Below, piece by piece: positions 23,304 through 52,573 of a stretch of DNA of 64,000 nt. The notes beneath the pieces are model-generated. The model did not search any database, was not told where the DNA came from, and worked only from the letters and a program-made list of their open reading frames with translations. Every line of letters starts with the position of its first letter. The first letter of the stretch is position 1. The translations under genes and the position numbers were made by a program. This stretch comes from Daucus carota subsp. sativus (Eukaryota; Streptophyta; Magnoliopsida; Apiales; Apiaceae): NCBI RefSeq assembly GCF_001625215.2, contig NC_030388.2, positions 25,904,558 through 25,968,557 on the forward strand. The letters are read 5' to 3'.

Positions 23304-23348
23304 GATTGGCATCAGAGCCAGGTTATTGTTTTTGAACTTGTTTGAACG

Positions 23349-26300: not shown

Positions 26301-27338
26301 ACTATTTCTGACCATTGTGTTTTTGTTCAGAGATTTTCAGATGATGATTTTATCATATTATTGCTTTATGTGGATGACATGCTTATTGTTGGCAAAAATA
26401 CTGAAAGAATTTCCCAACTGAAGCAACAGTTGAGTAAGTCCTTTGCCATGAAGGACTTGGGGCCAGCGAAACAGATTCTTGGCATTCGTATTCATCGAGA
26501 TAGAGTGGCCAAGAAGTTGCATATATCACAAGAGCAATATATTGAGAAGGTGCTTTGCAGGTTCAACATGGATAAAGCTAAAGTTGTTAGTTCTCCTCTT
26601 ACTACCAACTTTAAGTTAACTGAAAAGGATTCTCCTTCTACGAAGGAAGAAATTGCAGAGATGGATGGAGTTCCATATGCCTCAGCAGTAGGAAGTTTGA
26701 TGTATGCTATGGTATCTACGAGACCTGATATAGCCTTTGCAGTTGGGGTTGTCAGTCGTTATCTTACAAATCCGGGTAAGAAGCATTGGGAAGCAGTTAA
26801 GTGGATTATGCGATATCTTCGAGGTACTTCCAAATTGGGTCTTACTTTTGGGAATGATAAACCAGTGCTTATTGGATATACAGATTCTGACTTGGCAGGT
26901 GATAAGGATACATTGAAATCCACTTCTGGATATTTGATGACTTTTGCAGGGGGAGCAGTCTCATGGCAATCTAGGTTGCAAAAGGGTGTTTCACTTTCTA
27001 CGGGGGAGGCAGAGTATGTAGCAACAACCGAAGCTTGTAAAGAGTTGTTGTGGTTAAAGCGGTTGATGCAGGAGCTTGGCTTCCCGCAACAACGCTATGT
27101 GGTTCTTTGTGATAATCAAGCAGCTATCGATATTGCTAAGCATCCAACATTTCATGCAAGGACGAAACATATCGACATGAGGTATCATTGGATTAGAGAC
27201 GCTCTTGAAGAAGGGTTGTTTGAAGTGGAAAAGGTACACACCGATGATAATGGTTCTGATATGTTGACAAAGTCTTTAGCTAAAGGGAAGCTAAAGGTAT
27301 GTTGTTCGATCGCCGGAATGGCGAACTCTTTCTCATAG
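23349..27338 (+). CDS. Copia gag-pol polyprotein
   Basis: A single 1,329-residue frame. In order: gag (LNGSNYHVWKGKMEDLL), CCHC knuckle (CYHCGKKGHTKKFC), aspartic protease (WAIDSGASCHVT), GAG-pre-integrase (LWHKRLAHM), integrase core (HSDVCGPM..., RTDNGGEY), reverse transcriptase (YVDDMLIV) and RNase H (YTDSDLAGDKD; ends with the DMLTKSLAKGKL tail). The order integrase before reverse transcriptase defines Copia. The domain set looks complete. Copia elements normally make gag and pol from one frame, as here. Confidence 0.95.
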   Translation: METNTSRMVNLNGSNYHVWKGKMEDLLYVKEYYLPVFTTEKPANKTEQEWTILHRQVCGYIRQWVDDNVLNHISGETHARTLWNKLEQLYARKTGNNKLYLIKQLMSLRYQDGTTISDHLNAFQGIMNQLAGMGIKFEDEIQGLCLLGTLPDSWETFRMSLSNSAPDGIISMELAKSSILNEEMRRKSQGSSSQSEILVTERKGRAQSRGPANRGNQRSSSRGKYSNVECYHCGKKGHTKKFCRKLKRENKKSSDNDQTKTDSSNDNSVVIATTDEHLICCDGDIVNLAQDDLSWAIDSGASCHVTSRRDFFTSYTSGDFGDVKMGNSGISKVVGVGEVCLKFDTGMELFLHDVKHVPDMRMNLISTGLLDDEGYVSSFGNGQWKLTRGSLIVARGKRCPKLYMTQPKVSTSIVNAVENVDMIDLWHKRLAHMTEKGMNMLSKKKVLSGLTDIHLKRCSHCVAGKQNRVSFKSRPPSRREHILDLVHSDVCGPMKTRTNGGSLYFVTFIDDHSRKLWVYTLKTKDQVLDVFKHFQALVERQTGKKLKCIRTDNGGEYTGPFDVYCRQQGIRHQKTPPKTPQLNGLAERMNRTLVERVRCLLSHAELPMSFWGEALNTAVNVLNLSPCVPLQFDIPDRVWSGKDVSYDHLRVFGCKAFVHIPKDERSKLDVKTKECIFLGYSQDEFGYRLYDPVSKKIVRSRDVIFVEDQSLKDVGKAESVPQHNNDLVDLDPVPPRHVDSQVGDDAHDNDQHDTNTDIPENSDMDDDAHEESPVQNVPPFVPLRRSNRDRHPSNRYSADEYVLLTDSGEPESYAEAIEDEHKKEWVYAMQDEMKSLYENNTFELVKLPKGKRALKNRWVYRVKQDEHTSQPRYKARLVVKGFSQKKGIDFDEIFSPVVKMTSIRTVLGLAASLDLEVEQMDVKTAFLHGDLDKEIYMEQPEGFQVKGKEGYVCRLLKSLYGLKQAPRRWYKKFESFMKKQGYRKTISDHCVFVQRFSDDDFIILLLYVDDMLIVGKNTERISQLKQQLSKSFAMKDLGPAKQILGIRIHRDRVAKKLHISQEQYIEKVLCRFNMDKAKVVSSPLTTNFKLTEKDSPSTKEEIAEMDGVPYASAVGSLMYAMVSTRPDIAFAVGVVSRYLTNPGKKHWEAVKWIMRYLRGTSKLGLTFGNDKPVLIGYTDSDLAGDKDTLKSTSGYLMTFAGGAVSWQSRLQKGVSLSTGEAEYVATTEACKELLWLKRLMQELGFPQQRYVVLCDNQAAIDIAKHPTFHARTKHIDMRYHWIRDALEEGLFEVEKVHTDDNGSDMLTKSLAKGKLKVCCSIAGMANSFS

Positions 27339-27355
27339 TTAGAAAGGGGGAGATT

Positions 27356-28061
27356 TGTTGGGTTTTAGTTTCTATCTATGAGATTAAAAGCCCAATAGGA
27401 TTACCCTTGTTTTGGCCCACAAGGAGATAAAAATAAAGGGAACCCTATATATAAATATAGGAGGATATTTGTGAAAATAAGCAAGAGAGAAAATAGGCAA
27501 AAGAGATATATTGTGTGAAAATTCGTAGGTAATTTTCTGGTTGCGTTGGCTGCCTTGTTTTTGCGTTTCCCAGAGTTCCAACGGTCGGATCGTCCTGAAT
27601 TTCGGACAGCATCTTCCTAACACCGATATCTAAATTCTGAACGGTGGAGATCGGATTCGGAGGTGTATTTGAGGGGCTGGGCAGTAGCTAAAGAGCCGTG
27701 GAGAGGCTGAACCTAGCCGTGGGTCTTTGTTCTTTTGTTGCTTATTTGATTCCATACTTCTTGACGAGTTATTCCAAGAGTGTGAAGGTGATTGTATTCC
27801 TCTAGTTTTATCTGGAGAAGAACTTGGTGTATTACCCATATAATTTATCATAGTGAATTGTTTGGGTGGACTACGGTCCCGTGGTTTATACTCCTTTCAT
27901 TGAGGGGGTTTTCCACGTATAATTCTTGGTGTCTTGTTTATTGTTTATTGTTGCTTTACTTGTTTGTTTCATCGAAGGTTCATACAAATAGGGATAAGTA
28001 TTGTCCAACGAAGATTAATTCCGCACTTAGTTGTTGCCGTTGTGGTCACTTTTTCCCATCA
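27356..28061 (+). repeat. 3' LTR of the Copia element
   Basis: 706 bp, matching 22598-23303 throughout. It is directly followed by the ACTTA target duplication and the rest of exon 1 of dioxygenase D. Confidence 0.95.
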
Positions 28062-32933: not shown

Positions 32934-33661
32934 TGTTTTGGTAGCTCAAATGTTGTGATTACTGAGCTGAAATAGTGAGCAGATAAGATGATGTGGCGCG
33001 ATGTGGACGCATTTTTTCCTGTATGACAAGGAAAAATTTAATCAATATTTATCAACAACGTCACTGCCTCCGTCACTTTTTGGTCATATGTTATAATCAT
33101 ATTTATATACCCCTACTTCCGAAAAATTGATAACTTAACTACCAAGCAATTTATTTTGAATCTTTAGAGCCTGATCTGCAGTAATGGAGGAAGCCATTAA
33201 GCCCTTATGAATACGAGTATGATACATAATCAGTTGGTGTGTTAGGAGTTGTCACACATCGGTTGTGGGAGGGGTAGAAAGCTAGAATATGAGTAGTCAG
33301 AACATTTCCAAGAGGTTTTATTGGAAGTGTCCAAAAACAAAGTCGTGCGGATATCACACATAGTATCGTCGTGATTTCAGATTTACCAATCCCGTCATCA
33401 GTAGAAAAAACAACATTTAAAACCATAACAATGTTTTCATATGATACATGAAGAAGATCTCCTGCGTGTGCCACAAGAGATCCAGGAACAAGACGACATT
33501 AACTCAGTGATTACCAAGAGCAACTAGTAGGTCACCAGTCTTGCAAAGTATCACTCAGTTTAATATATGATAACAGCTAATCAGCTTCGGTGATTTTGTC
33601 ACCAAGCAAATTATTAATATATTATTACACATATTTATCTATTTTGGACTACAAATTTTGT
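32934..33661. other. Upstream of E and dioxygenase relic copy 2
   Basis: 32934-33105 is the upstream region of E and matches that of D (28393-28560). From about 33150 the dioxygenase relic with the LTR/TRIM-like piece follows (see 28561), minus-strand reading VPGSLVAHAGDLLHV near 33480-33450. In this copy the GTCCCACATCGG motif reads GTCACACATCGG. Confidence 0.65.
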
Positions 33662-34971
33662 TCATTTCAGCCTGAAGTGCAGCAATCGAGATTCCCCGTC
33701 CAGCCCTTTTGAGTAGGAGTATGATAAATATTCTTGAGCTGTTGTTTCTCTATACTTGGGAGGATTATCTTCTGAAACCAACTGTTTGATAGGTCCATAG
33801 AGCTTCGGAATCGGAGATGGCATTAGACCAGTGCTAAAGAAGCATGCTACTGATACTCTCGGGCCAATTTTCTTTGCAACGACTCTGTGCTCCACACTTT
33901 TAAAGCGATCATTCGTTAGAAGCTGAAAAAACAATCATTAAACAAGAATGAGAAACTGAACTTGTCTTCACTTCAATCATTCAATGTACACTACACAACA
34001 TTTAAATTCGCAATACTTGCCTGTAGAAGATCTCCGATGTTAACTATAAGTGTCCCCGGAAGAGGTGGAACATCAATCCAATGATCTTGGTAAAGAATTT
34101 GTAGTCCACCAATCTGATCTTGAAGAAGTACAGTGAGGAAATGAAAATCAGTGTGTTTGGTGGTGCCTAATGTGAGTTCTGGCTGCGGACATGGGGGATA
34201 GCAATGACAGAACAATTCAAGCCCCTTGGCACATTCCATATCTTCTAGGTGATTAATGTCCAGTCCCAGAGCCTTGGATAGTAATCCAAATAAAGTAATC
34301 CCCAATTTCATTACTTGTTCTGAAAACGCTATCTGTATATCTCTGCAAAGTTTAATCATGAAATGTTCAATTTTCCTAAGCCAAATAATAGGCAATAGTT
34401 GTAAGAACATTATGATTTTATATTAAGCATACCTGCATGGTTCTGGTAATTCCTCTAGAGGAGGAGAAGGAGCCATTGAACAGGAAAGTGAGTCCCTCCA
34501 GTTAGCTGCACGGCCAGTAAACAAATCAAAATTGGAATTATACACCACTTTTCTGGAAAGGTCACGAGTGTAAAACTGTTTCTTCACTTCGGTGTCTTGC
34601 TCAAAGAACCTATGCACCCCATGAAGCATCTCTTCTAAGACAGTCACCGGAATTCCATGATTCACAACTTGGAAAAAACCAAATGTCTCTGATGCACACC
34701 GCACTTTGTCTACTATCTCTTGATGACTCATTGGATCTTTGTCTAAGCATCCAAGATCAACTACTGGAATGCTAAATTCTTTGCACTTGTGATTTGAGTT
34801 CTTGTCAAAGGCGTCAGGTGGATGCACGAATATACTAGGAATCTTCTGAACTCCACTCTCTACGAGTCCCTTCACCCCGGCTTTGGTGTCATCAAAAGCT
34901 TGTAGTTCTCTTTGGCGATTGGAGGATGATGTGGTGGACAGTGGTGCTTCCATGATACTATTACTGACCAC
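33662..34971 (-). CDS. 2-oxoglutarate/Fe(II) dioxygenase, copy G
   Basis: Exons complement(34433..34971), complement(34021..34342) and complement(33662..33922) give 373 residues; intron 2 is GC-AG. It starts MVSNSIMEAPLSTTS (second ATG available). Iron ligands are H243, D245 (KHTDFHF) and H299; R309/S311 (GPRVS). It is the donor of exons 2-3 of F. Compared with F it carries a three-codon PIP insertion in exon 3 (SPIPKLYG). It lies just downstream of relic copy 2. It is exactly duplicated as G' at 47147. Confidence 0.94.
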
Positions 34972-35985
34972 CTTTCTGAACTCTCTGTATTATACTATAT
35001 GATTGCTCTTATTTTCTTTGCCACATATACAAGGGACAATGATTTAAAGATAAGCATATGACAGTTCCATCCGGCAACCACCAGTTACCTCAGAAAAACT
35101 CAACTCTATCTTGCAACTAATATCTTGAGGGGCTATATTTATCTTGTATGGTCTCAAATGCATGATCCTTTATTCATAAATTGTAAATCTCTATATGCTG
35201 TTAATGCACAAAATTCAAGTTGAGATGAGGCCAATAATTCAATGAAACAACTACATGCTGCAACTTGCCAATTTCATTGACTAGCTCAGGATGACACACA
35301 CTTAATAATATCAACTCAACGAACTACATTGATTATAAAAAATCAAAAATATCAGCTAATGTTCCTAAATAATTCTCATTTCATTCCGTTTTCTGCGACC
35401 AAACACAACATTAGATTTCAGCGACGCCACACAAACCAATGAGCTGATTAGAACATAAACCGGGCCTCCTGCAGAATTTATTCACTTTCTGACATTTTTG
35501 GCCTAGTAAGCCAACTTCAATTTCTGTCAGATAGCTTGGATAGACAAGAAGGGTGTATTGTTGTGAGCTAAAAAGAAGTTGGAGAGCTCCTGCAGCTCTT
35601 GTACCACAAATAATTTATTAAATGAAATATATTTTTTTAATTTTCTAATCTAGCAAACTCTTATCAAAAATAAATTTTTATACTGATTATTTACTTTACA
35701 GTTTGCGTAATTTTTTAAGCTTTATAACATTTTCAATTTATGATTCAAATTTCATGTATTAATAAGTTTCGTATATTACATAAACTCAATTTTTTAAAAC
35801 TATTTGAAAGCATAACTACGTTCACATTCGGAGAAAGATCCTCAAGTTTTCTAGAAGAGAAATAGGAACATCAACTCACTGTTTATGATGAAGAACTCTT
35901 AGTCCAGTGATCTTGCAAACATATGGCTATAACAACTAATCAACTTGTTGATTTTGATGCCAAACAGATGATACATTAATTATTT
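34972..35985. other. Upstream of G, 3' flank of H
   Basis: Contains about 85 bp (near 35220-35310, CCAATAATTCAATGAAACAA...) that recurs upstream of H near 37450-37530. It also contains AATCAAAAATATCAGCTAAT near 35340, which recurs downstream of the second segment near 51103. So G and H arose from an older tandem duplication that included the upstream region. No gene otherwise. Confidence 0.65.
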
Positions 35986-37388
35986 TCATATCAGCCTAAA
36001 ATGCTGCAATCGAGATTCACCGTCAAGCCCTTTTGAGAAGGAGTGTGACACATACTCCTGAACTGTTGTTTCTCTGTACTTGGGAGGATTATCTTCTGAA
36101 ACCAACTCTTTGATGGGTCCATATAACTTTGTAGATGGCATTACAGAAGTGCTAAAGAAGCATGCTACTGATACTCTTGGGCCAATATGATTCGCCACTA
36201 CTCTGTGCTCCACGCTTTTGAAGCGATCATTAGTTATAAGCTGAAAAAACAATTATTGAGCACAAAAGGAATAAGAAACTCAAATTTGTCTTCACTTGAA
36301 TCACTCTTAATAAAATACATTTGAATTTGCAAAACTTGCCTGCAAAAGATCTGCAATGTTAACTATAAGCGCCCCTGGCAATGGCGGAACATCAATCCAA
36401 TGATCTTCGTGAAGAAATTGGAGGGCACCTATCTGATCTTGCAGAAGGACGGTAAGGAAACCATCATCAGTGTGTTTGGTGGCGCCTAATGTGAGTTCTG
36501 GCTGTGGACACGCGGGATAGCAATGACCAATAAATATAAGCCCCTTGGCACATTCCATATCTTGTAGGTAATTAGGGTCCAGTCCCAGAGCCTTCGATAG
36601 TAATTCAAATAATGTAATCCCCAGTTTCATTACTTGTTTTGAATACTCCATCATTATATCTCTAAAAATTTTAATGATTAAATGTTAAACTTCCCAGCTG
36701 TTGATAAAACCAAACCAGGCCAAATATAGCCTCGTAGGTAAAGACAGGTTCATGCATATCTTAACGGGTATCATTTGAATCAGTAAAGTCATGCATATCT
36801 TAACGAGGTATCATTTGAATCAGTAAAGTACAAATAGACATACCTGCATGCTGCTGGCAATTCCTCTGGTTGAGGAGGGGAAGGGGCCATAAAACTGGAA
36901 AATGTGTCCCTCCAATTTGCTGCTGGTGAACTAAAGAGATCATAATTGGTATTATACACTAATTTTTTTGTATAATCGCGCGTGTATAACTGTTTCTTCA
37001 CCTCACTGTCTTGATCAAAGAACCTATGAACTCCATGAAGCGCCTCTTCTAAGACACTCACTGGAATCCCATGGTTGACAACTTGAAAAAAACCAAATGT
37101 CTCTGATGCACACCGCACCTTTTCCACTATGTCTTGACGACTCGTGGGATCTTTGTCAAGGCACTCAAAATCGATGGTAGGAATGCTAAATTCCTTACAC
37201 TTGTCACTTGAGTTCTTGCCAAATGCATCAGGTGGATGAATGAATATATTAGGAACCTTCTGAATGCCAGCATCTACAAGTCCTTTCACCCCGGCTTTGG
37301 TGTCATCAAAAGCTTGTAGTTCTCTGCGGCGGTTGGAATAAGATGTGATTAATGGTACTGCTGTTTCCATGGTACTACTAGTGACCAT
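35986..37388 (-). CDS. 2-oxoglutarate/Fe(II) dioxygenase, copy H
   Basis: Exons complement(36844..37388), complement(36340..36661) and complement(35986..36240) give 373 residues; intron 2 is GC-AG. The frame is open further upstream, but alignment with B, C and G places the start at [11 protein letters not shown] (37388; METAV at 37370 is an alternative). Iron ligands are H245, D247 (KHTDDGF) and H301; R311/S313 (GPRVS). Exon 2 differs from its relatives at [11 protein letters not shown] where they have GGLQILH. Intron 1 contains a 40-bp tandem duplication (CATGCATATCTTAACG...AGTAAAGT). Exactly duplicated as H' at 49471. Confidence 0.93.
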
Positions 37389-37585
37389 CTTCTTGTGTGT
37401 TATCTGTGTTATAAATTGTGATTGCTCTAATAATCTTGGCCACATATACAAGGGCCAATAATTCAATGAAACAATTACATGCTGCAACTTGCCAATTTTG
37501 TTGACTAGCTCAAGATGACACAGACACTTAATAATATCAACCAACTACACTGACTATATCATTACTCTCATACATACTAGAAAAA

Positions 37586-37720
37586 GTGCAAAAGACATCA
37601 CCCATTTAACAGCGGTCGGTGATGCCACCGATGTTAAAAAGGTTTTTAACATCGTCAAGTTTTTAACCGATGTTAAAACCATTTCTAGCATCGGTTTATA
37701 AAAGAACCGCTGTCTAATCT
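37586..37720. repeat. CACTA left subterminal repeats
   Basis: ACCGATGTTAAAA and TTTTTAACATCG alternate in both orientations (about 37628-37700). They match the ACATCGGTTGTGAGCCGATGT-type motifs at the other end. These are likely binding sites for the element's own DNA-binding protein. Confidence 0.75.
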
Positions 37721-37854
37721 CCATTTTTAAAAAAATTTAAAAAAAGCGCCCAGTACTTGTAATTATTTTGTCTATCTTATTACACACCCCGCTTCTTTTA
37801 TTACACAAAATACACCTCCCCGCCCTTAACCAAATATTTGCTCCCCGTTTTCCC

Positions 37855-37930
37855 CCCTTTCTCCTCTCGACTCTGCACTGCTCTCTCTCTCGACTCTCTC
37901 TCTCTCGCATCTCCTCCAGCTCTCTCCCTC
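37855..37930. repeat. CT-rich microsatellite in the CACTA leader
   Basis: Runs of CTCTCTCT interrupted by CGACT. Such pyrimidine-rich tracts are common in plant promoters and 5' leaders; this one lies 0.65 kb before the TNP2 start. Confidence 0.7.
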
Positions 37931-38575
37931 TCATATCCATCTCTGAGCATCTCTCTCTCACCTCCATCTCTCACCAGGCTTGAACTCATCTCTCAGCAGC
38001 TGTGACCAAAACCCTAGTTTTGAATTAGCTACAATGGAGCTTGCTTTGGGTTCCTAACTTCTTGGTATGGTTTTGGGTCTTTTGATTTTGCTATTTTGCT
38101 CTTAATTTTGGGTCTTTTTGCTTGTTTGCTCTTGCTTTGTTTTGTTAATTTCTTGCTCTCCTTTTCGGCAGATCTGGAAGTAGCTTTCGAATTAGCTTTC
38201 GGGTTGTTTTAAGGTATGAAGTTTCTCATTTTTTGTTTGATTGATTTGATTTTAAAATTTTAACAGCATGCATTAACATTCTTGTGTTCGATTGGTATTT
38301 TTTTGTTTGTATATTTCATATCTAAACACCAGGAGATGCTAAGCTTAGCATCTTACAGTTATGTGTACATTTTTATATATCATATATAAACATTAGGAGA
38401 TACCTTGCTGGTTTTGTGCTTATTTGTTTTTTATATATCATATATAAAATAATTTAGGATCCTTGCTGGTTTTGTGCTTATTTGTTTTTTGTGAATATGT
38501 ATTAAATTGTATTTCTTGTGTATGTTTGAATGATAATCAGGTAGGTTGGTTTGGTGATACCTTCTTGTGAAATTT

Positions 38576-41500
38576 ATGGATAAGTCGTGGATTTTGAAAG
38601 ATAGGGATTCATTAGACTACGAAATAGGGGTTGAAAATTTCTTGATCTTTGCCAAAGAAAATGCAGTTGATTGTAAAAACATTCCTTGTCCGTGTGGTCG
38701 TTGTGGTAATTTCAAAAAATTTTCTGTGAAAATCATCAGAGGTCATTTATATGAGAACGGTTTTAGTTTAGGGTACACTGAATGGATTTGGCATGGAGAA
38801 AAATGTGTCGAAACTAGGTCTTCAGCTGGTAGTTCATACCCTCCTGACTTGAACAGAGTTGCTGCCACACAAACAAAACAAGTTTGTGAGGCAGCATATG
38901 GTACTGGTGATTATGATGAGGAGGCACATGAGTTTAAGAGGTTTGTGGCCGACGCTGAACAACCTCTGTTTGAGGGTAGTGAGTGCACTAAGTTAGAGTC
39001 GATGTTAAAACTGCATAATTGGAAATCGAGGTTTGGCATTAGCGATGCTGCCTTTACCGACTTGTTGTCTTCTGTTGGCTCTTTCCTTCCAAGTGGTCAT
39101 GTTTTGCCTGTTAATGCATATGAAGCAAAAAAGAACCTATCTGATCTAGGACTTGATTATATAAAAATCCACGCATGTCCTAATGATTGCATACTGTATA
39201 GGGGTGTATATAGTGAAGGTTCCAAGTGTCCCAAGTGTAATTTATCTCGTTGGAAATTGGGGAAGGATGGTAGAGTTAGGACCAATGTTCCAGCAAAAGT
39301 TTTATGGTACTTCCCTATTATTCCCAGATTTAAACGGTTGTTTAAATCTCCTTCTACTGCTGAAATGATGTCTTGGCATGCAAACCACCGAATTCAAGAT
39401 GGCCTGATGCGCCATCCAGCCGACTCTCCTTCTTGGAGGAATATCGATCATAGGTGGCCCATCTTTGGTAGTGAGTCTAGAAATCTTCGCTTAGCGTTGT
39501 CGGCTGATGGTATAAATCCACATACTAATAAGCTAATCAATAGGTATAGCTGCTGGCCAGTGGTGTTGGTAACTTATAATCTTCCTCCATGGCTATGCAT
39601 GAAGAGGAAGTTTATGATGTTAACATTATTAGTTTCTGGTCCGCATGAGCCGGGAAATAATATAGATGTATACCTACAACCAATGATTGATGATCTAAAA
39701 AAGCTCTGGGAAGAGGGGGAACCAAATGTTTTCGACGGGTATAGTAAATCTTATTTCACTTTAAGAGCAATATTGTTGTGGACGATAAATGACTTCCCTG
39801 CATATGGTAATCTGTCTGGCTGCGTTAATAAGGGGTATATGGCATGTCCAATATGCTGCGATGATACCATAGCTAAATACTTGACTCATAGTCGAAAAAT
39901 GTGCTACCAAGGCCATCGTCGGTACTTGCCTCGACATCATCCATATAGGAGGCAGAAGACAAGTTTTAATGGAGAACAAGAGCATGGACAGGCACGTGAA
40001 CCCCTTTCCGGAGAAGAAGTATTAGCGCAGCAGCAAGAAGTGAAGTTTACTTTTGGGAAAGAAGTGAAGAATTCCCAGAGGGTAGAATGTGTATGGAAAA
40101 AGAAGTCAATTTTCTTCGAGTTAGAATACTGGAAGTTTCACCACATTCGCCATTGTCTCGATGTAATGCACATCGAAAAAAATGTCTGTGATAGTCTCAT
40201 TGGTACCCTTCTAAATATGCGGCATAAATCTAAAGACAGTGAAGCATCTCGCCGTGATATGATGGAGATGGGTGTCAGGGGTGATTTAGCTCCACAAGTA
40301 GGAGAAAAAAAAACCTACTTGCCCCCTGCACCTTATACTCTGTCAAAGGCGGAAAAAAAGAAAGTTTTGTCATCATTCTTATACATGAAAGTTCCTTTTG
40401 GACATTCATCAAACATCAAAAATTGTGTGTCGATGTCTGATATGAAAATGTACGGGCTAAAGTCCCATGACTGCCACATCCTCCTCCAACAGTTGCTCCC
40501 TGTTGCCATTCGATCTGTTCTTCCGAAACATGTTAGAATCAGCATAATTAGATTGTGTTTCTTTTTCAACTCATTGTGTAACAAAGTTGTAGATGTATCA
40601 AAACTAGATAAACTGCAATCAGATGTGATAGTGACTTTGTGTGAGCTTGAAAAGATATTTCCCCCCTCGTTTTTCGATGTAATGATACATTTGACAGTCC
40701 ACCTGGTTAGAGAATTGCGTTTATGTGGACCAGTTTTCTATAGATGGATGTATGCATTTGAAAGGTTTAATAAAGTGTTAAAGAGTTATGTTCGAAATCG
40801 TTATTATCCGGAGGGTTGTATAGCCGAAAGCTATATAAAAGAAGAATCAGTTGAGTTCTGCTCAGAATTTGTTGGACAGAGTGGCACTGCTGGACTTCCG
40901 AATGAAAAAAGCAAGCTTTCGGGTCCATTATCTGCTGCAAAAGTAATATCAGTTGAAGAAAACGAGCGAGACGAGGCACATCTGCATGTCCTTCAAAACA
41001 ACTCTGAAGTCTATCCTTATATTTTGTAAGTCTAAGCTATTACTTGTAACTACGTCTTCTTATATATTAGATACATCTTTTTTGTTTAATATTGTCATTT
41101 TTCAGGATGCATAAGGAGTATCTTGAAAGACTTTACCAAGGGAAAAAAAAAAGTGCTCAGTGGATGATGGGTGAACACAATCGGCTATTTGCTGATTGGT
41201 TTGAAAAAAAAGTAAGTTTGGCCATTGTTTATTTTTATTCAAGTATTTCCAATCATGAAATAAGATTGAATTCATTTTTTCCGGTTATATGTGCAGGTTA
41301 GCAATGAAATTAAGGAGAATGTTGATAGTGTTTCTGAAACGATTAGATGGTTGGCAGGAAAACCATCTTATTATGTTTTGACATATGGAGCATATCTAGT
41401 TGATGGAGTCCGGTACTTCACAAAGGAGCGAGATGATTTGAGAGTTGTCCAAAACAGTGGTGTTTCTTTAGTGGCGAAGACAGTCCAAGTCTCCAGTGCT

Positions 41501-41944
41501 AAGGATTTGAATCCCGTGGAGAGCGATATGAAATTTTATGGAATGATCTTAGATATATGGGAGTTAGATTATCATGAATTCAAAGCTCCCCTGTTCTTGT
41601 GTAAGTGGGCAGAGAATGAGAGAGGAATTAAGGTAGACGACCTTGGATTCACACTTGTGGACTTTAGTCGACAAGGGCACAAGAAAGATAAATTTGTGTC
41701 TGTTGACCAAGTAAAGCAAGTTTTTTACGTTGAAGATCCGATTGATGCTAGATGGTCTGTTGTATTAACCTCTACGACTCGAGACTATCACGATGTGTAT
41801 AATGAAGATGATTTAGGAGACACGGTCTTGGAAAATCCCCCATTCTGCTCTGCTATACCCACATGTGATGTTGATGCCCTTGAGCATAGTGTTAGTCATT
41901 GTAGACAGAACATTCAGGGAATTTGGCTTAAAAAGTCAACCTAG
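38576..41944 (+). CDS. CACTA transposase, TNP2 type
   Basis: Exons 38576..41025, 41106..41211 and 41297..41944 give 1,067 residues with canonical GT-AG introns. The ATG at 38576 (MDKSWILKD) is the family start. Domains: transposase-associated domain with cysteines (CPCGRCGN) in residues 1-75; TNP2 core from about 266 (WHANHRIQDGLMRHPAD, LSADGINPH, NLPPWLCMKRKFMM, TINDFPAYGNLSG); HCLDVMHIEKNV near 525; DUF4218-like region (FERFNKVLKSYVRNR) near 718; DUF4216-like region in exon 3 (VVQNSGVSLVAKTVQV, KFYGMILDIWELDY). It cuts and joins the element ends. No frame break was seen, so the element may encode an active transposase. Confidence 0.9.
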
Positions 41945-42156
41945 GATAAGTTTGTTGTTTTTAATATATTGCATCTTTTTATTTGCCTTTACCATGTCTG
42001 ATTGTTAGACTTTAATCTATTGCAATATGTGTTACGTGCATTTTTTAATTTTTCAACGTTATTCTTTTGCCTGCTTACTTTCTAACTATTCACCTGTATT
42101 TTATAATTGTTCACCTGCAATTGGCTTATATTGAATCAACAGATTGAAGGAAAAGA

Positions 42157-45100
42157 ATGGCACCAAAAAAGCAGAAAGTTAAGAAATCCAAGAAATCCAA
42201 GCCGGCAGCTGTGCAGGATAATGCTGATCAGCTGGTTGATGCAGGACAAGAAACACAACCTGAAATTACACAATCAGAAACTACTACTACAGAAACTAAA
42301 AAAAAACGATATGGAGGTGCTCGAGGTCCTTCGTCTATGTATAAAGTGGTGGTAAAAAAGGCTCAGGGCAAGAAGTTCAAAGTTAGATGCAATTATATTG
42401 GAGTTCCAGTGGGAAGAGTTAGGCACACTTTGCAGTCTTACATAGGAATGTTGGCGAGGACTATGATTCCGATCGATATTAAAAGCTGGCCATTTGTCGA
42501 ACGTGAATTAAAAAATAAGTTGTGGATGGATATCCAGGTAAAATCTAATAAAATAATAAAATTACATAGTCCTATAGACTTATATATAGTTGTTAATTGT
42601 TTAGTAAATGAATTTTCATGTGTTATATATATATTTAGTACTGTTGACTTATATATAGTTGTTAATTGTTTCAGAATGCTTTTAAAATTCCTGAGGAATG
42701 TGAGTCGCTTGTTCTGAAGTCTGCTGGAACAAAGTGGAGACAATTCAAATCTGAATTGACTACTGATTATGTCATTCCATTTAAGGGAGACAAGAAGAAA
42801 CTGCGGAAGCCTCCAAAAAAGTACGGATTTGTTGGTAAAGATGTTTGGAAGAGATTTGTTGCTGAAAGGACGAGTGATAAGTGGATGGTATTGTTTTACA
42901 TTTATTTTTAAATCACATTTGCATTTTAAATTCTTCCTTTAATTCCTTTATTGTCTATTATTTTTTCAGAAACTTCGTGCAAAACAGAGCAAAATAGTAG
43001 AGCAACGGAAGTATCCACATCGGCTGTCCAGGAAAGGCTACATTGGTTTAGAAGAAGAAGAAGTACGAAATTCCTTACTCTTATTGTAATTTCCAGTTTC
43101 ATAATTAATATGATTATAAATACTCTTCCATTCTGATCAGGTGAAGGCGGGAAGGTTGAAGCCTGGAGAGAAACCCGATCGAGCGATTCTCTGGAAGAAG
43201 GCACGTCAAACAGCGGAGGGTATGGTAGTTGATACCGGGTTGAGTGATGTTCTTAAAAAAATTGTAAGCTATAGTCTTTGTGTTTTGTTTTTTAATTGTT
43301 TTATTAATCAATTATGTGCATTTTATGCTTTCTTTCTGAATGCACACGTGGTGTTTATAGGATAACTTACTAGAGATGAAGAAAAAAGGTGAATTTCAGC
43401 CGTCTGGAAGTGATGACGTATTAACTAGAGCACTCGAGACTCCCGAGCATTCAGGCAGGGTTCGAGGAATTGGAAGTTATATCACCCCAAAACTATGGTT
43501 TGATTTGCCAAAAGAAAAAAAAAGAAGAATTACCAAGAGTGAGCTGGAAGATCGTGATCGTATAAGGGATGAGGAAATGGAGAGAACAAGACAGGAGATG
43601 GAGAGAACAAAGCAAGAAATGGAGAGTTACAAGGAGGAAATGGAGAGAACAAAGCAAGAGATTAATGCGCTTAAATCTCTTCTTAGTGCATCCAATATTA
43701 CATCCTCTCCACTGTCGGACAAAGACAGTTGTCCAGTAGAGAAAGCAACACATAACCAAGGAGCGGTTATACCAGCAGCTGCACCAACTTTGAGGGAGGA
43801 GTTGATTGTTGATGCCGATATTGAATATGTTGGTGGGGACCCCCCTCCACCCGCAAAGAAGGTAAAAAGTTGTGTATATATACTTATAACTAAACAGGAG
43901 AGATAATTGTCCATAGAAAACACTATATGTACATGACAATAAATACTATCTGAATGCAGGGTCCGCGATCCTGTGAGTTGTCTGTAGACAACATAGAAAA
44001 CAAGGTTGCATTCGGCACGATTTTTGATGATACAGAATTGAATACTGTAGTTCATGGTGTGCCTATCCAGCCTGGACATGTTCGTGTTGCGGTGGACGGA
44101 GCCATCCAGGGAGATGCCTTACTTCCTGTGCCAGTAGAGGGTGAACTAGAGACTGTGAAACAAGCAATTGGTTCTATGGTTTCTTGGCCAGAGGACTTGA
44201 TCACTATTCCACCTGCTGTGGTATTCCTTACTTTGTATCCATTTTATTGTATTTACGTGTGTTTTATTTACGTGTCTGTGTTATTTCTAGGAAAAAAATG
44301 TGTTATTGAAGTTCTGATTATTTATTTGCAGAAAACAAGAAAGGATGCATCGAAGAAAAAAGACAAAATTGAGATGCGAAATGTGGTTGCTAAGTTTAAG
44401 AAAGTGGAGGTAGCTAACAGTGTGCCCAATGGTTTTAACTCGTTGTATAAACATGCAACAACCATAATGAAAGAGACTGGGGACTCTATTGCAATTCCAT
44501 GTGACGTTGAGGTGTTTGGTTGTGATAAGGTTATCTACATATTGCATGAGAATTTAATTGCTTTATTAAAATTTGAAGAGATTGGCCAAGCTGCAATAAC
44601 AGCACATATGTCGTAAGTTTTTTTACTCCATATTCTTGTTTCATTTTCGATATTAATATTGCAAAATACTGTGATATTTTATTAATATTTATTTATTTGT
44701 AGTTACTTGCACGGTATGATTCGTGAGAATAATGAAATGGATGTGTATGGCTTTATTGATCCTGGGGCCACATTTAACCTTAACAAGGAGTTTGAAACTT
44801 ATGTTGTTAAGCGGTTGATGAATGGCAGCTATGATCGCATGTTCTTGATGCCGCATAATTTCAAGTAAGTTTCGACAGCCTTTGTAATTATGATCTCATG
44901 TTCTTGATTGAGATTTGGTGATGAATCTGACCTTACTTAAATTTTAAATGAAAACAGTTATCATTGGATTTTGGTCGTAATTTATGCTGGTGAAATTTTT
45001 ATCCTCAATCCTCTGTCGCATCCAACTCATTTTCCTCACTTGGAAAAACCATTATTAAGGTGAATTCTTTAAATTTGTTTGTCAAATTTAAATGTATCTA

Positions 45101-45609
45101 TGTTGAATTTTCTTATTGTCCCTAAAACTAAGGACACGAAAACATTCTTTACTGTAGTGCATTTAAGACTTTTAAAGCTCAGACTGGAAGGGGAAACACT
45201 GTTCCTAAAATTAAAAATTTGGCTGTAAGTATATTTTAGCATTTGAATATCAGTGATCAGCAGATCAAATTTTATGTTTGTTGTGCTGATAAATAGTAAA
45301 CTCTAATTTTATTAGGGATCTCCTAAGCAACCAGGTGGCCGTGAATGTGGTTACGCGATTATGCGCTATATGAAAGATATAATCGAGGATAAAGAAATGA
45401 CTTTTATAACTAAGGTATAGATTTGGTGTTCTGATGCAAGTACTTGACTATTATTGCTAGGTTTTTTGTTTTATACAGCTGCTTAACTATTATTGTTGTC
45501 TGTTTCTTATACTTTTCAGTGGGCTAACAAGAGTCGTAAATCTTACAAGATGGAGGAGCTGGATGAGGTTCGTGTAGAGACGCTTGCCTATATCCAAGAC
45601 AAATTGTGA
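42157..45609 (+). CDS. CACTA accessory protein: Ptta/En/Spm-type region plus Ulp1-like C48 protease
   Basis: Twelve exons: 42157..42537, 42675..42887, 42970..43062, 43141..43263, 43361..43861, 43960..44220, 44332..44612, 44703..44864, 44958..45059, 45158..45224, 45316..45414 and 45520..45609. All junctions are GT-AG and keep one frame of 790 residues. The N-terminus is basic (MAPKKQKVKKSKKSK). Next comes a plant transposase Ptta/En/Spm-like region (IPFKGDKKKLRKPPKKYGFV, LRAKQSKIVEQRKYPHRLSR), then a coiled coil of repeated EEMERTKQ units. The C-terminal third resembles Ulp1/SENP cysteine peptidases: H in YHWILVV (about 44960), N in ILNPLS where Asp is usual, and C in GRECGY (about 45346). Many plant CACTA elements carry such C48 domains. 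Confidence 0.82.
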
Positions 45610-46634
45610 TAGATATGGCCTCCTGTCCAGTAGCTAGTTGTATATATCCTGGTCTGCTCATATTTTGGTCTAGTACTTGATCGATCTTCAAACATTATGC
45701 TATAACATTTTGTCTAGACATGTCGTACTTATGATTCAGATCGATAGGTACTAGTTAATGAGGTTGGTAGTTTTTGGTTGGTTGGAGAAACTAGTGGTAT
45801 TATTTGGTTGGTAATTGTTTGGAATTATATATGTTGGATGGATTCTTGAATGGTACTTTTAGAAGATATTGGATGTTTGGATGGAATTTATATAAATGGT
45901 GATATTATTGGTAGTTTTTGATTTGTTGGTTATTGGTAGTTTTTGGTTGGTTGGTTATTGGTAGTTTTTTGTTGGTTTCTTGAATGGTGATTTTGGTTTT
46001 TTGGTTCATATATATATAAAAGGCAGGGGTGACTTGTAAACCAAAGCAACAGCGGGCACAAAATAAATCAATGTTGATACATGTAAATGACAACGGTTAT
46101 AATTAAAAAAACAATGTCTTTAAACACAGAACACATCAGTGCCTTAGAAGAAGATGATGTCCTATTGAGTTTTTACATCGGTTACTTATAGGCAAACAAG
46201 AACCAAAAATTTGATATTACATTGGTAAATCTAAAATAGAGATGTCTTTGTACTATTTTAACATTGATTTCTTAAAAAAAACCATGTTAAAACAAGTTAC
46301 TACATCAGCTAACTAGAAAGGGGTGATGTTAGAGGTTCCTATGGACATCATATCGTTTTTAAGAAACGATGTCTTTATCTTATTTTCTCTGTAATGTGAC
46401 ATGCTAAAATTGACATATATCAGGAGATAAACCAATATTCAAATAGAAATACTGTCATTAAATGTAATACAATTCAAAAACGACATCAGAAACTAAGTGC
46501 GAGACGATGTCTTTGTTTGTATTTAACATCGGCTCACAACCGATGTTAAATATGTAGGACCTTTCTCTACACATGCGAAGACATCGCTTACAAAATTTTT
46601 TAACATCGGTTGTGAGCCGATGTCTATTGCTCTG
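45610..46634. other. CACTA 3' region: low-complexity repeats then subterminal motifs
   Basis: 45760-45990 is built of TTGGTTGGTTATTGGTAGTTTTTGG-like repeats, imperfect and about 40 bp each. From about 46080 the strand carries repeated ACATCGGT / CGATGTC motifs, densest at 46510-46625, forming the right subterminal region. Confidence 0.7.
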
Positions 46635-47146
46635 TTTATTTTGAATCTTTAGAGCCTGATCTGCAGTAATGGAGGAAGCCATTAAGCCCTTATGAATACG
46701 AGTATGATACATAATCAGTTGGTGTGTTAGGAGTTGTCACACATCGGTTGTGGGAGGGGTAGAAAGCTAGAATATGAGTAGTCAGAACATTTCCAAGAGG
46801 TTTTATTGGAAGTGTCCAAAAACAAAGTCGTGCGGATATCACACATAGTATCGTCGTGATTTCAGATTTACCAATCCCGTCATCAGTAGAAAAAACAACA
46901 TTTAAAACCATAACAATGTTTTCATATGATACATGAAGAAGATCTCCTGCGTGTGCCACAAGAGATCCAGGAACAAGACGACATTAACTCAGTGATTACC
47001 AAGAGCAACTAGTAGGTCACCAGTCTTGCAAAGTATCACTCAGTTTAATATATGATAACAGCTAATCAGCTTCGGTGATTTTGTCACCAAGCAAATTATT
47101 AATATATTATTACACATATTTATCTATTTTGGACTACAAATTTTGT

Positions 47147-48456
47147 TCATTTCAGCCTGAAGTGCAGCAATCGAGATTCCCCGTCCAGCCCTTTTGAGTA
47201 GGAGTATGATAAATATTCTTGAGCTGTTGTTTCTCTATACTTGGGAGGATTATCTTCTGAAACCAACTGTTTGATAGGTCCATAGAGCTTCGGAATCGGA
47301 GATGGCATTAGACCAGTGCTAAAGAAGCATGCTACTGATACTCTCGGGCCAATTTTCTTTGCAACGACTCTGTGCTCCACACTTTTAAAGCGATCATTCG
47401 TTAGAAGCTGAAAAAACAATCATTAAACAAGAATGAGAAACTGAACTTGTCTTCACTTCAATCATTCAATGTACACTACACAACATTTAAATTCGCAATA
47501 CTTGCCTGTAGAAGATCTCCGATGTTAACTATAAGTGTCCCCGGAAGAGGTGGAACATCAATCCAATGATCTTGGTAAAGAATTTGTAGTCCACCAATCT
47601 GATCTTGAAGAAGTACAGTGAGGAAATGAAAATCAGTGTGTTTGGTGGTGCCTAATGTGAGTTCTGGCTGCGGACATGGGGGATAGCAATGACAGAACAA
47701 TTCAAGCCCCTTGGCACATTCCATATCTTCTAGGTGATTAATGTCCAGTCCCAGAGCCTTGGATAGTAATCCAAATAAAGTAATCCCCAATTTCATTACT
47801 TGTTCTGAAAACGCTATCTGTATATCTCTGCAAAGTTTAATCATGAAATGTTCAATTTTCCTAAGCCAAATAATAGGCAATAGTTGTAAGAACATTATGA
47901 TTTTATATTAAGCATACCTGCATGGTTCTGGTAATTCCTCTAGAGGAGGAGAAGGAGCCATTGAACAGGAAAGTGAGTCCCTCCAGTTAGCTGCACGGCC
48001 AGTAAACAAATCAAAATTGGAATTATACACCACTTTTCTGGAAAGGTCACGAGTGTAAAACTGTTTCTTCACTTCGGTGTCTTGCTCAAAGAACCTATGC
48101 ACCCCATGAAGCATCTCTTCTAAGACAGTCACCGGAATTCCATGATTCACAACTTGGAAAAAACCAAATGTCTCTGATGCACACCGCACTTTGTCTACTA
48201 TCTCTTGATGACTCATTGGATCTTTGTCTAAGCATCCAAGATCAACTACTGGAATGCTAAATTCTTTGCACTTGTGATTTGAGTTCTTGTCAAAGGCGTC
48301 AGGTGGATGCACGAATATACTAGGAATCTTCTGAACTCCACTCTCTACGAGTCCCTTCACCCCGGCTTTGGTGTCATCAAAAGCTTGTAGTTCTCTTTGG
48401 CGATTGGAGGATGATGTGGTGGACAGTGGTGCTTCCATGATACTATTACTGACCAC
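47147..48456 (-). CDS. 2-oxoglutarate/Fe(II) dioxygenase, copy G'
   Basis: Exons complement(47918..48456), complement(47506..47827) and complement(47147..47407); 373 residues, identical to G in protein and structure, including the GC-AG second intron. All catalytic residues are kept (H243, D245, H299, R309). Identity across introns as well as exons points to a very recent duplication or, less likely, an assembly artefact. Confidence 0.92.
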
Positions 48457-49470
48457 CTTTCTGAACTCTCTGTATTATACTATATGATTGCTCTTATTTT
48501 CTTTGCCACATATACAAGGGACAATGATTTAAAGATAAGCATATGACAGTTCCATCCGGCAACCACCAGTTACCTCAGAAAAACTCAACTCTATCTTGCA
48601 ACTAATATCTTGAGGGGCTATATTTATCTTGTATGGTCTCAAATGCATGATCCTTTATTCATAAATTGTAAATCTCTATATGCTGTTAATGCACAAAATT
48701 CAAGTTGAGATGAGGCCAATAATTCAATGAAACAACTACATGCTGCAACTTGCCAATTTCATTGACTAGCTCAGGATGACACACACTTAATAATATCAAC
48801 TCAACGAACTACATTGATTATAAAAAATCAAAAATATCAGCTAATGTTCCTAAATAATTCTCATTTCATTCCGTTTTCTGCGACCAAACACAACATTAGA
48901 TTTCAGCGACGCCACACAAACCAATGAGCTGATTAGAACATAAACCGGGCCTCCTGCAGAATTTATTCACTTTCTGACATTTTTGGCCTAGTAAGCCAAC
49001 TTCAATTTCTGTCAGATAGCTTGGATAGACAAGAAGGGTGTATTGTTGTGAGCTAAAAAGAAGTTGGAGAGCTCCTGCAGCTCTTGTACCACAAATAATT
49101 TATTAAATGAAATATATTTTTTTAATTTTCTAATCTAGCAAACTCTTATCAAAAATAAATTTTTATACTGATTATTTACTTTACAGTTTGCGTAATTTTT
49201 TAAGCTTTATAACATTTTCAATTTATGATTCAAATTTCATGTATTAATAAGTTTCGTATATTACATAAACTCAATTTTTTAAAACTATTTGAAAGCATAA
49301 CTACGTTCACATTCGGAGAAAGATCCTCAAGTTTTCTAGAAGAGAAATAGGAACATCAACTCACTGTTTATGATGAAGAACTCTTAGTCCAGTGATCTTG
49401 CAAACATATGGCTATAACAACTAATCAACTTGTTGATTTTGATGCCAAACAGATGATACATTAATTATTT
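48457..49470. other. Upstream of G', 3' flank of H'
   Basis: Copy of 34972-35985; same content, no additional feature. Confidence 0.7.
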
Positions 49471-50873
49471 TCATATCAGCCTAAAATGCTGCAATCGAGA
49501 TTCACCGTCAAGCCCTTTTGAGAAGGAGTGTGACACATACTCCTGAACTGTTGTTTCTCTGTACTTGGGAGGATTATCTTCTGAAACCAACTCTTTGATG
49601 GGTCCATATAACTTTGTAGATGGCATTACAGAAGTGCTAAAGAAGCATGCTACTGATACTCTTGGGCCAATATGATTCGCCACTACTCTGTGCTCCACGC
49701 TTTTGAAGCGATCATTAGTTATAAGCTGAAAAAACAATTATTGAGCACAAAAGGAATAAGAAACTCAAATTTGTCTTCACTTGAATCACTCTTAATAAAA
49801 TACATTTGAATTTGCAAAACTTGCCTGCAAAAGATCTGCAATGTTAACTATAAGCGCCCCTGGCAATGGCGGAACATCAATCCAATGATCTTCGTGAAGA
49901 AATTGGAGGGCACCTATCTGATCTTGCAGAAGGACGGTAAGGAAACCATCATCAGTGTGTTTGGTGGCGCCTAATGTGAGTTCTGGCTGTGGACACGCGG
50001 GATAGCAATGACCAATAAATATAAGCCCCTTGGCACATTCCATATCTTGTAGGTAATTAGGGTCCAGTCCCAGAGCCTTCGATAGTAATTCAAATAATGT
50101 AATCCCCAGTTTCATTACTTGTTTTGAATACTCCATCATTATATCTCTAAAAATTTTAATGATTAAATGTTAAACTTCCCAGCTGTTGATAAAACCAAAC
50201 CAGGCCAAATATAGCCTCGTAGGTAAAGACAGGTTCATGCATATCTTAACGGGTATCATTTGAATCAGTAAAGTCATGCATATCTTAACGAGGTATCATT
50301 TGAATCAGTAAAGTACAAATAGACATACCTGCATGCTGCTGGCAATTCCTCTGGTTGAGGAGGGGAAGGGGCCATAAAACTGGAAAATGTGTCCCTCCAA
50401 TTTGCTGCTGGTGAACTAAAGAGATCATAATTGGTATTATACACTAATTTTTTTGTATAATCGCGCGTGTATAACTGTTTCTTCACCTCACTGTCTTGAT
50501 CAAAGAACCTATGAACTCCATGAAGCGCCTCTTCTAAGACACTCACTGGAATCCCATGGTTGACAACTTGAAAAAAACCAAATGTCTCTGATGCACACCG
50601 CACCTTTTCCACTATGTCTTGACGACTCGTGGGATCTTTGTCAAGGCACTCAAAATCGATGGTAGGAATGCTAAATTCCTTACACTTGTCACTTGAGTTC
50701 TTGCCAAATGCATCAGGTGGATGAATGAATATATTAGGAACCTTCTGAATGCCAGCATCTACAAGTCCTTTCACCCCGGCTTTGGTGTCATCAAAAGCTT
50801 GTAGTTCTCTGCGGCGGTTGGAATAAGATGTGATTAATGGTACTGCTGTTTCCATGGTACTACTAGTGACCAT
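49471..50873 (-). CDS. 2-oxoglutarate/Fe(II) dioxygenase, copy H'
   Basis: Exons complement(50329..50873), complement(49825..50146) and complement(49471..49725); 373 residues, identical to H. Its upstream region is shared with H only as far as 51063, about 190 bp before the start codon. Beyond that point H has the CACTA end and H' has the ordinary flank, so the two may differ in regulation despite identical proteins. This is the last member of the array before ARP9. Confidence 0.92.
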
Positions 50874-51063
50874 CTTCTTGTGTGTTATCTGTGTTATAAA
50901 TTGTGATTGCTCTAATAATCTTGGCCACATATACAAGGGCCAATAATTCAATGAAACAATTACATGCTGCAACTTGCCAATTTTGTTGACTAGCTCAAGA
51001 TGACACAGACACTTAATAATATCAACCAACTACACTGACTATATCATTACTCTCATACATACT

Positions 51064-52573
51064 TCTCCAGTGACGCTCTCCTCAAAGATTCCTTGTTACA
51101 GAATCAAAAATATCAGCTAATATTCCTAAAAGATAAAATCATAGTATTGCAATAACAAAGTATATATATGCAAATAGTTGTATAAAAGCATCAACAAGAC
51201 AGTTCGATATTAGCAACTCAACACAAACAAGTGAGCTGACTTAAACATAGAACATAAACCTTCCAACGTGAGGAAACTACAGACAACATATGTTGAACCC
51301 TCAGCTACCAACAGGGGTGTAAATGAGCCGAACCGAGCCCAACTCTAGAATGCTCGCTTATCGTTTGTTAAAAAATTAGCGAGCTCGAGCTTGGATTTGA
51401 GCCAAAAATATTGTTTAATAATCGACTCATTAAAAAATAACTCTATTTACGAACGGCTCGCAAACCGCTCACAAACATGTCTCACGAGCGGTCTCACGAA
51501 CTTTTGCTCACGAACCGATCATTAACTTACGCTCACGAACATGTCTCACGAATTTTTGCTCACCAACCGCTCATTAATTTTGTTCACGAGTTTATTTAAT
51601 AAATTTTGCTAAAGAGCTAGCTTATGCTCATAAATATATTTACGAGTTTGTTTGCTATTAATTTAATTAAAAAAGTAAATCAAGTATTTTAATTTATGCT
51701 CTAAGGAATCATGAGCCAAGTTCACGAACCATGTTCCCGAACTCATAATTCGAACTTGTTCGCGAACTATCGAGTCGAACTCTACTGTGCTGGTCAAGTT
51801 CAACTCGTTTATAAAATGAACCTTAAAATTGTGCTCAAAATCGATTCGTTTATGAATCAAACTTTTTTCGAACCGAACACCGAGCGGTTATCGAGCGTAT
51901 CAACTTATATACAGCCTTAACTACCGCCTCTTGCAGAATTAATTCACCTCTGCTAAATAAATTATAATTCTAATATGTTTAATCAAAATAAATTAATTTT
52001 AAATTTTGTCGATATGTTATATAATTATAATTTCAAATAATAATGTTTTTCTCTTCAATTAAACCTATTTATAATCAACTACATTTTGATAGAATTTGAT
52101 ACTAATAAATCTTTTAGACTCTAATAAATAATAGATTCTATTTTGAAAAAATATTAATCAATTTTTTTCAAAAGTTAGAATCAATTTTCGTCAATTTAAA
52201 ATCAACTAATATATTAGAATCATATATTTTTATTAATATATTAAATTATGAATTAAATACACTTCTTTTCTACAAAATGAATACTATAATTAGATATCTA
52301 AGATAAATGAAATTTAATATATAATATTTATTTTCCTCATAATTTATATTATTTATTATTAATTTACAACATATACATTATTTTATAATTAATATGAGTT
52401 TATAATTTTGTTATATATTTTATATATATTTTGCATTTTAACTTATTTAAACTATCTTTTGTATTTTCATCTTACCACACAACTAATTCATGAGTTTAAG
52501 CTCCCCGTCATTTGTTATTGATATATTAAGTAAAAGTAGGTATAAGTAATTTAAGATTTGAGGCTCCAACTAA
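51064..52573. other. Intergenic: old G/H flank, GAGC-rich repeat, AT-rich DNA
   Basis: 51090-51300 is related to the region upstream of G (AATCAAAAATATCAGCTAAT; ACATAGAACATAAACC). It is interrupted by the repeat at 51314-51915, after which GCAGAATTAATTCACCTCTG resumes the similarity. 51955-52570 is very AT-rich with no feature seen. Confidence 0.6.
51314..51915. repeat. Dispersed plant repeat with CTCACGAAC subrepeats
   Basis: Begins GGGGTGTAAATGAGCCGAACCGAGCC and contains many TCACGAAC / GCTCACGAAC units before ending near TCGAGCGTATCAACTTATATACAGCC. Repeats of this start and composition are widespread in plant genomes. It seems to sit inside the older G-upstream homology, consistent with insertion. 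Family not assigned. Confidence 0.55.

Follow-up and report, generated by a model that had tools for sequence, protein, structure and literature searches.

How did two adjacent enzyme genes of carrot (Daucus carota subsp. sativus) come to lie twice, in identical form, on either side of a transposon? The window analysed here is a stretch of 64,000 nucleotides (NC_030388.2, positions 25,904,558 to 25,968,557), in which the two genes were duplicated recently as a single identical 4.4-kb block, with a nearly complete CACTA element between the copies. The block and its genes are arranged as follows, in window positions:

33150..37578, unstranded: duplicated block copy 1, 4429 bp, identical to 46635-51063
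33662..34953, minus strand: gene G copy 1, 2-oxoglutarate/Fe(II) dioxygenase, three exons with script-chosen splice sites, Pfam assignment from the identical copy 2
35986..37388, minus strand: gene H copy 1, 2-oxoglutarate/Fe(II) dioxygenase family, Pfam assignment from the identical copy 2
46635..51063, unstranded: duplicated block copy 2, 4429 bp, identical to copy 1
47147..48438, minus strand: gene G copy 2, identical to G copy 1, assigned by Pfam
49471..50873, minus strand: gene H copy 2, identical to H copy 1, assigned by Pfam

Self-comparison of the window gave 0 mismatches over 4429 bp at a constant offset of 13,485, exactly at the coordinates proposed in a first-pass annotation of the locus, and the identity ends abruptly at both edges. 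Since the remaining self-matches of at least 500 bp, among those listed, reach only 65-90% identity (apart from a 706-bp LTR-like repeat pair at 99.4%), the identity of the block exceeds what chance or shared ancestry within the gene array would give. A genome search with positions 36700-37578, the right-hand portion of the block, as query returned two full-length matches, both within the window. Two complete 2-oxoglutarate dioxygenase genes are doubled, and the native 5' region of the upstream H copy is cut to 190 bp, measured from its first in-frame ATG to the CACTA junction; H copy 2 probably carries the longer, original upstream region. Copies that agree at 100% could also reflect a false duplication made during assembly. 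Against this, the assembly matches one for which PacBio, Nanopore and Hi-C data of a doubled haploid were combined (PMC10581907), which makes merged haplotypes unlikely, the joined sequences overlap by 3-4 bp alone, too short for any assembler overlap, and neither 20-base junction recurs elsewhere in the window. We regard an artefact as highly improbable, the least probable of the explanations weighed here.

The sequence between the two blocks is accounted for by one element:

37579..46634, plus strand: CACTA (En/Spm-type) element, 9056 bp excluding shared junction bases, filling the gap between the blocks exactly
38576..41029, plus strand: TnpD-type transposase reading frame, 817 aa, Pfam Transposase_21 (2.4e-91), DUF4218 (1.1e-41) and Transpos_assoc (1.5e-17)
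41291..41944, plus strand: further reading frame, Pfam DUF4216 (5.3e-17)

Including the microhomologies described below, element homology spans 37575-46637. The Transposase_21 match (2.4e-91) places the element in the CACTA (En/Spm) group; the 817-aa frame is presumably TnpD, and the DUF4216 frame is probably a later transposase exon. Four close siblings in the genome (C3a, C3b, C6 and C9) all keep the family ends CACTACTAG...CTAGTAGTG, with the CACTA...TAGTG termini intact, and three of the four are flanked by a perfect 3-bp target-site duplication (TSD; GAA, CTA, AGT). The fourth, C6, seems anomalous in this respect, but the sequences beside it (CAATT/CAATC) point to a duplication of 5 bp at that site. 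Beyond these siblings, CACTA is kept in 26 of 27 related left ends examined and TAGTG in 11 of 13 right ends. A more diverged relative on C5 (86% over the left end) reads AACTACTTGG at its left end; its right end is absent from the 3 kb fetched, and it was left out of the sibling set.

Compared with the four siblings, the window copy is a damaged member of this family: i) the left end is without 3 bp (CAC), ii) the right end is without 9 bp (CTAGTAGTG), and iii) no 3-bp TSD surrounds it. The annotation had noted the loss on the right, put there at about 10 bp, and had overlooked the loss on the left. The window copy differs from its nearest, intact-ended sibling C3a on chromosome 3 by a single SNP (46442) in 9063 bp, at which the window base is common to the three other siblings and C3a deviates. 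With a duplicate free of mismatches and a single SNP across the element, later erosion of both ends is unlikely.

The element is joined to the blocks as follows:

37575..37578, unstranded: left inner junction, where TACT is common to the native flank (CATACATACT) and the element end (CAC-TACTAG), a 4-bp microhomology
46635..46637, unstranded: right inner junction, where TTT is common to the element (CTCTGTTT-CTAGTAGTG) and the native site (CAA-TTTATTTTG), a 3-bp microhomology

The null probabilities of such overlaps are 0.021 for the 4-bp and 0.050 for the 3-bp microhomology, jointly about 0.001. Homologies of 4 bp and 3 bp together with end losses of 3 and 9 bp are what is expected of microhomology-mediated end joining. 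Moreover, one join lies within 3 bp of the left terminus of the element and the other within 9 bp of its right terminus, for which two random cuts would have a probability of about 1e-6. This agrees with the proposal of the annotation that breakpoints at both element ends reflect a transposition-linked event, and it supports a common origin of duplication and element. A plain tandem duplication, as also argued there, leaves the proximity of the joins to both termini unexplained; the variant in which the element inserted afterwards exactly at the junction is ruled out by the missing TSD and the trimming of both ends. Homologous recombination between CACTA copies is likewise ruled out, the outer edges being without element sequence. 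Microhomology at both joins is also what replication template switching (MMBIR/FoSTeS) would leave, if a replication fork stalled, used a chromosomal CACTA element as template and returned 4.4 kb upstream, and template switching at TIR transposons is reported for Pack-TIRs in animals (PMC8277862). However, in an element of 9 kb the switch points would by chance have to come within 3 bp of one terminus and 9 bp of the other (about 1e-6), and we consider this course very unlikely.

The outer edges of the duplication are these:

33149..33150, unstranded: outer left edge, native and continuous, related sequence crossing the edge in two array units (at about 21264 and 31353)
51063..51064, unstranded: outer right edge, within about 58 bp missing from the paralogous unit at 35337-35341

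On the right, a 29-bp match to the same paralogous unit (35337-35341) picks up again at 51102-51130, and from this one match the edge is probably native. It may itself have been altered, because the breakpoint falls within the stretch of roughly 58 bp that is present at H and absent from the paralogous unit. A search of the forward strand for local templates of the 59 bp at the right edge and of the 46 bp left of 33150 gave longest exact matches of 9-11 bp, compared with a mean longest match of 11 for 100 shuffled 59-mers; a 73-bp query from the right edge matched itself alone in the genome. The 46-bp stretch left of 33150 turned out to be native.

The left junction can also be parsed as CTCATA|CA(C)TACTAG, that is, as the junction of an insertion that lost 1 bp, and this parse counts against an origin by end joining. 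It belongs to a two-step course. A normal insertion would first have placed CACTA on the right of H, flanked by a TSD (ATA, for instance); after replication, the element would have been excised from one chromatid, leaving the footprint CATACATA at the outer right edge, and on the other chromatid its broken right end would have been joined to 33150. The outer right site CTCATACATACTTCTCC, which resembles ATA-C-ATA, and the position of the breakpoint inside sequence absent from the paralogous unit are in line with this. Such a course nevertheless requires a coincidental 6-bp identity (CATACT) of footprint and junction as well as a separate 1-bp loss at the left end, and more events, whereas the 4-bp microhomology accounts for the same bases in a single step. 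We therefore judge it unlikely.

The annotation had pointed to alternative transposition of the Ac/Ds type, in which the transposase itself would have linked both ends of the element to a sister-chromatid target, with trimming of the ends during or after the event. The layout at the carrot locus is indeed like that of the reversed-ends duplications at maize p1, with two direct copies, a transposon between them and one outer edge free of the element (PMC3744419). In contrast, the de novo maize duplications described there end precisely at the Ac termini in nine of nine cases with 8-bp TSDs at the breakpoints, a twinned duplication/deletion pair shares a common 8-bp TSD, and two nearby element ends are required (PMC3744419). 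The carrot locus has one element with both termini trimmed and joined at microhomologies, not at intact transposon ends, and searches of the window with each of its ends as query gave no second element or end; a partner that has since departed is conceivable. Of three natural maize duplications assigned to this route in the same report, one holds an element whose 5' TIR is short of 12 bp and another has fractured elements (PMC3744419), so that trimmed ends by themselves cannot decide against it. At the carrot locus, though, both ends would have to be trimmed within a very young event, and we hold this mechanism, for which the junctions give no support, to be distinctly improbable.

Break repair, another option raised in the annotation, fits the trimmed ends and microhomology joins best. 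The explanation we favour, with somewhat better than even confidence, is that a linear CACTA element was captured by microhomology-mediated end joining at breaks 4.4 kb apart. In one recent event, L - GH - R would have become L - GH - CACTA - GH - R: the transposase would release the linear element, its insertion would not be the work of the transposase, and host end joining, presumably of the polymerase-theta type, would take it up, with the ends losing a few bases and annealing at TACT and TTT. A free, excised molecule is favoured because both joins lie near both termini. The two breaks might have fallen on the two sister chromatids, or on the opposite strands of a single molecule with subsequent fill-in; either geometry would leave a G-H block on each side of a bridging element, so that the block would resemble a "target-site duplication" of 4.4 kb. 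Before the event, one G-H pair would be expected, with CAAGCAATTTATTTTG and CATACATACTTCTCC uninterrupted, an ancestral site that we infer from the paralogues.

Comparable cases are known from other plants. T-DNA is likewise taken up as linear DNA at breaks, with trimmed ends and microhomology (PMC8395108), whereas the captured molecule in carrot is an endogenous transposon. Maize composite insertions formed by transposition-mediated re-replication, as presented in PMC4270019, also combine a duplication with an element, with a 3-bp microhomology join in one allele and a truncated Ds in the old allele bz1-m4-D6856; there, however, the insertion is flanked by an 8-bp TSD and the junction made by end joining lies inside it, while in carrot both element ends are the joined ends. 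In rice, perfect tandem duplications of up to 4.9 kb, attributed to patch repair (PMC7971508), speak for the favoured explanation; that they are mostly shorter than 125 bp and drop sharply above that length counts against it, and the part of the report drawn on here describes no 9-kb transposon between copies. In Arabidopsis, a TSD accompanies 119 of the 122 somatic TE insertions that were fully resolved, and for two TSD-less insertions the authors of that account allow DNA-repair-type integration (PMC12312487). Within literature available without subscription, none of the titles listed concerned a trimmed CACTA element between tandem copies, and a targeted search for captured transposons gave no match.

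The locus offers a clean, young natural case in which junction bases help to tell alternative transposition from end-joining capture in tandem gene duplication. A single step would have given second copies of two genes and, for H copy 1, a different upstream region. Direct copies with a trimmed, near-complete transposon between them and microhomology at the joins provide a signature for other plant genomes. As a tentative and rather doubtful generalization, excised DNA transposons might bridge end joining between sister chromatids in a process triggered, and not completed, by the transposase, with the right-edge break perhaps itself an excision site of the same element; if true, this bridging route would duplicate whole genes while disabling the transposon.

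The duplicated unit and the element inside it are arranged as follows:

33150-37578, copy 1 of the GH block, carrying the adjacent dioxygenase genes G and H, both on the minus strand
37579-46634, one CACTA element, which occupies the gap between the block copies
inside this element, a reading frame encoding a transposase of 817 aa (domains Transposase_21, DUF4218, Transpos_assoc)
inside this element, a second reading frame with a DUF4216 domain
46635-51063, copy 2 of the GH block, with the second copies of G and H

Self-comparison of the window confirmed the two identical segments of the first-pass annotation: they agree base for base over 4429 bp with 0 mismatches. In the genome (441,086,747 bp in 11 contigs; C1 to C9 total 440,708,879 bp, the longest 64,558,952 bp; the window is C8:25904558-25968557), a query with the right-hand portion of the block (36700-37578) found two full matches only, both being the block copies, and the next-best matches are 80-83% relatives, most within the same dioxygenase array and one at C8:12.68 Mb. 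Carrot DH1 v3 is described as a doubled-haploid assembly that combines PacBio, Nanopore and Hi-C reads, with 440.7 Mb, nine chromosomes and a longest sequence of 64.5 Mb (PMC10581907). The array also holds an LTR-retrotransposon-like insertion (22598-28061; 706-bp direct repeats with 4 differences, ACTTA on either side), and an inverted, palindromic self-match of 581 bp (86% identity) lies at 62920-63500.

Close siblings of the element are found on C3 (two: C3a and C3b), C6 and C9, the last one internally deleted; a more diverged C5 relative with a degraded left end was excluded from these counts. All four begin with CACTACTAGAAAAAGTGC and end with TTGCTCTGTTTCTAGTAGTG, and three have target site duplications (TSDs; GAA/GAA, CTA/CTA, AGT/AGT), while the C6 sibling lacks a 3-bp TSD and is flanked by CAATT/CAATC instead. 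Over 9063 bp, the window copy and C3a disagree at a single base, a substitution at 46442 at which the window copy agrees with the three other siblings; C3b and C6 differ from the window copy at 35 and 58 positions, respectively. Compared with the siblings, it lacks CAC at the left end and CTAGTAGTG at the right, so that the previously noted loss of about 10 bp on the right holds but the left end is trimmed as well. C3a (C3:4411792-4420866) is intact with GAA/GAA TSDs, its flanks resembling a putative membrane transporter coding sequence by eye only; C3b (C3:17933446-17942520) sits within a long tandem-repeat array, and its two flanks align mutually at many offsets.

Among further related ends read as short stretches, CACTA is kept in 26 of 27 left ends (35 matches listed, 8 already read and 27 newly fetched) and TAGTG in 11 of 13 right ends (37 listed, some being inverted self-matches; 5 already read, 13 newly fetched, weaker matches left out). 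Therefore, trimming is uncommon in this family but not confined to the window copy. A right end at C2:35464553 (L018/L078) lacks its last 15 bp and adjoins a dispersed repeat; this element, which may be a further end-joined copy or one damaged later, is identical over 1766 bp to an intact-ended sibling 227 kb away, and a CACTA left end lies nearby at ~C2:35467840. At C6:2419310-2419380 (L053), a left end reads ...ATATACTACTAG in place of CACTACTAG and adjoins an AT repeat.

Both inner joins carry microhomology: TACT is common to native CATACATACT/TCTCC and element CAC/TACTAG on the left, and TTT to element CTCTG/TTTCTAG and native CAA/TTTATTTTG on the right. When join points were drawn at random, from the 700 bp surrounding each native site and from the outermost 12 bp of the element, the chance of at least 4 bp on the left is 2.1%, of at least 3 bp on the right 5.0%, and of both ~0.1%. 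By formula, the chance that two random cuts in a 9-kb element land within 3 bp of one end and 9 bp of the other is near 1e-6.

We somewhat favor a capture event, in which a linear CACTA element would have been released and its ends joined by microhomology end joining to two breaks 4.4 kb apart, either on sister chromatids or as staggered nicks with fill-in; the product fits either. This single step would explain why the block is duplicated, why the element ends are trimmed and joined at microhomologies, and why there is no TSD. Alternative transposition of the Ac/Ds type, proposed in the first-pass annotation, is not borne out and appears improbable, since insertions made by a transposase, this type included, have intact ends at their joints and short TSDs beside them, and no joint here is so formed. 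In a maize study, nine de novo Ac duplications end precisely at Ac termini, unlike here, but natural duplications assigned to reversed-ends transposition show a 12-bp TIR loss and fractured elements (PMC3744419). These natural cases with damaged elements slightly weaken the case for capture and slightly strengthen that for alternative transposition. A printed precedent was not found among the matches listed in our literature searches.

The outer edges bear on a further variant. The left one (33149/33150) is native because two related array units, found by motif at ~21264 and ~31353, continue through it (ACTACCAAACAATTCATCTTGAATC, ACTACCAAACAATCTATTTGAATC vs ACTACCAAGCAATTTATTTTGAATC); a closer unit (~28.6 kb) is about 45 bp shorter at this site, most likely through a deletion of its own. 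On the right (51063/51064), the unit downstream of G aligns in two pieces, its 35229-35337 with 50938-51043 and its 35341-35369 with 51102-51130 (29 bp). Compared with this paralogous unit, H has ~58 bp extra upstream (51043-51102), for which no template was found within the window; a 73-bp right-edge query had no genomic match other than itself. Since the breakpoint falls inside this extra stretch and the C8:12.68 Mb relative aligns only as far as 51043, this edge, previously called ordinary flank and probably the empty site, is probably but not certainly native. A two-step origin, with an earlier insertion and excision at this edge, is a less likely reading, suggested by CATACATA at that edge and by the left junction, which is readable as a 1-bp loss in CACTACTAG.

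At an assumed mutation rate of 7e-9 per site and generation, 0 of 4429 differences set a 95% upper limit of ~48,000 generations for the duplicate, which could look younger through gene conversion, and 1 of 9063 one of ~37,000 for the element.

The DIOX_N and 2OG-FeII_Oxy domains place G and H among the 2-oxoglutarate/Fe(II) dioxygenases, and the first exon of G has feruloyl-CoA ortho-hydroxylase 1 as best solved-structure match (E 6.7e-20). For both genes, splice sites chosen by a script, not from transcripts, give a full reading frame of three exons (the G run began one codon ahead of its ATG). Owing to the minus-strand orientation, the CACTA end limits the upstream region of H copy 1 to 190 bp from the first in-frame ATG, whereas H copy 2 keeps a longer one. 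Without its terminal bases, the element is probably no longer mobile, so the duplication will likely stay where it is.
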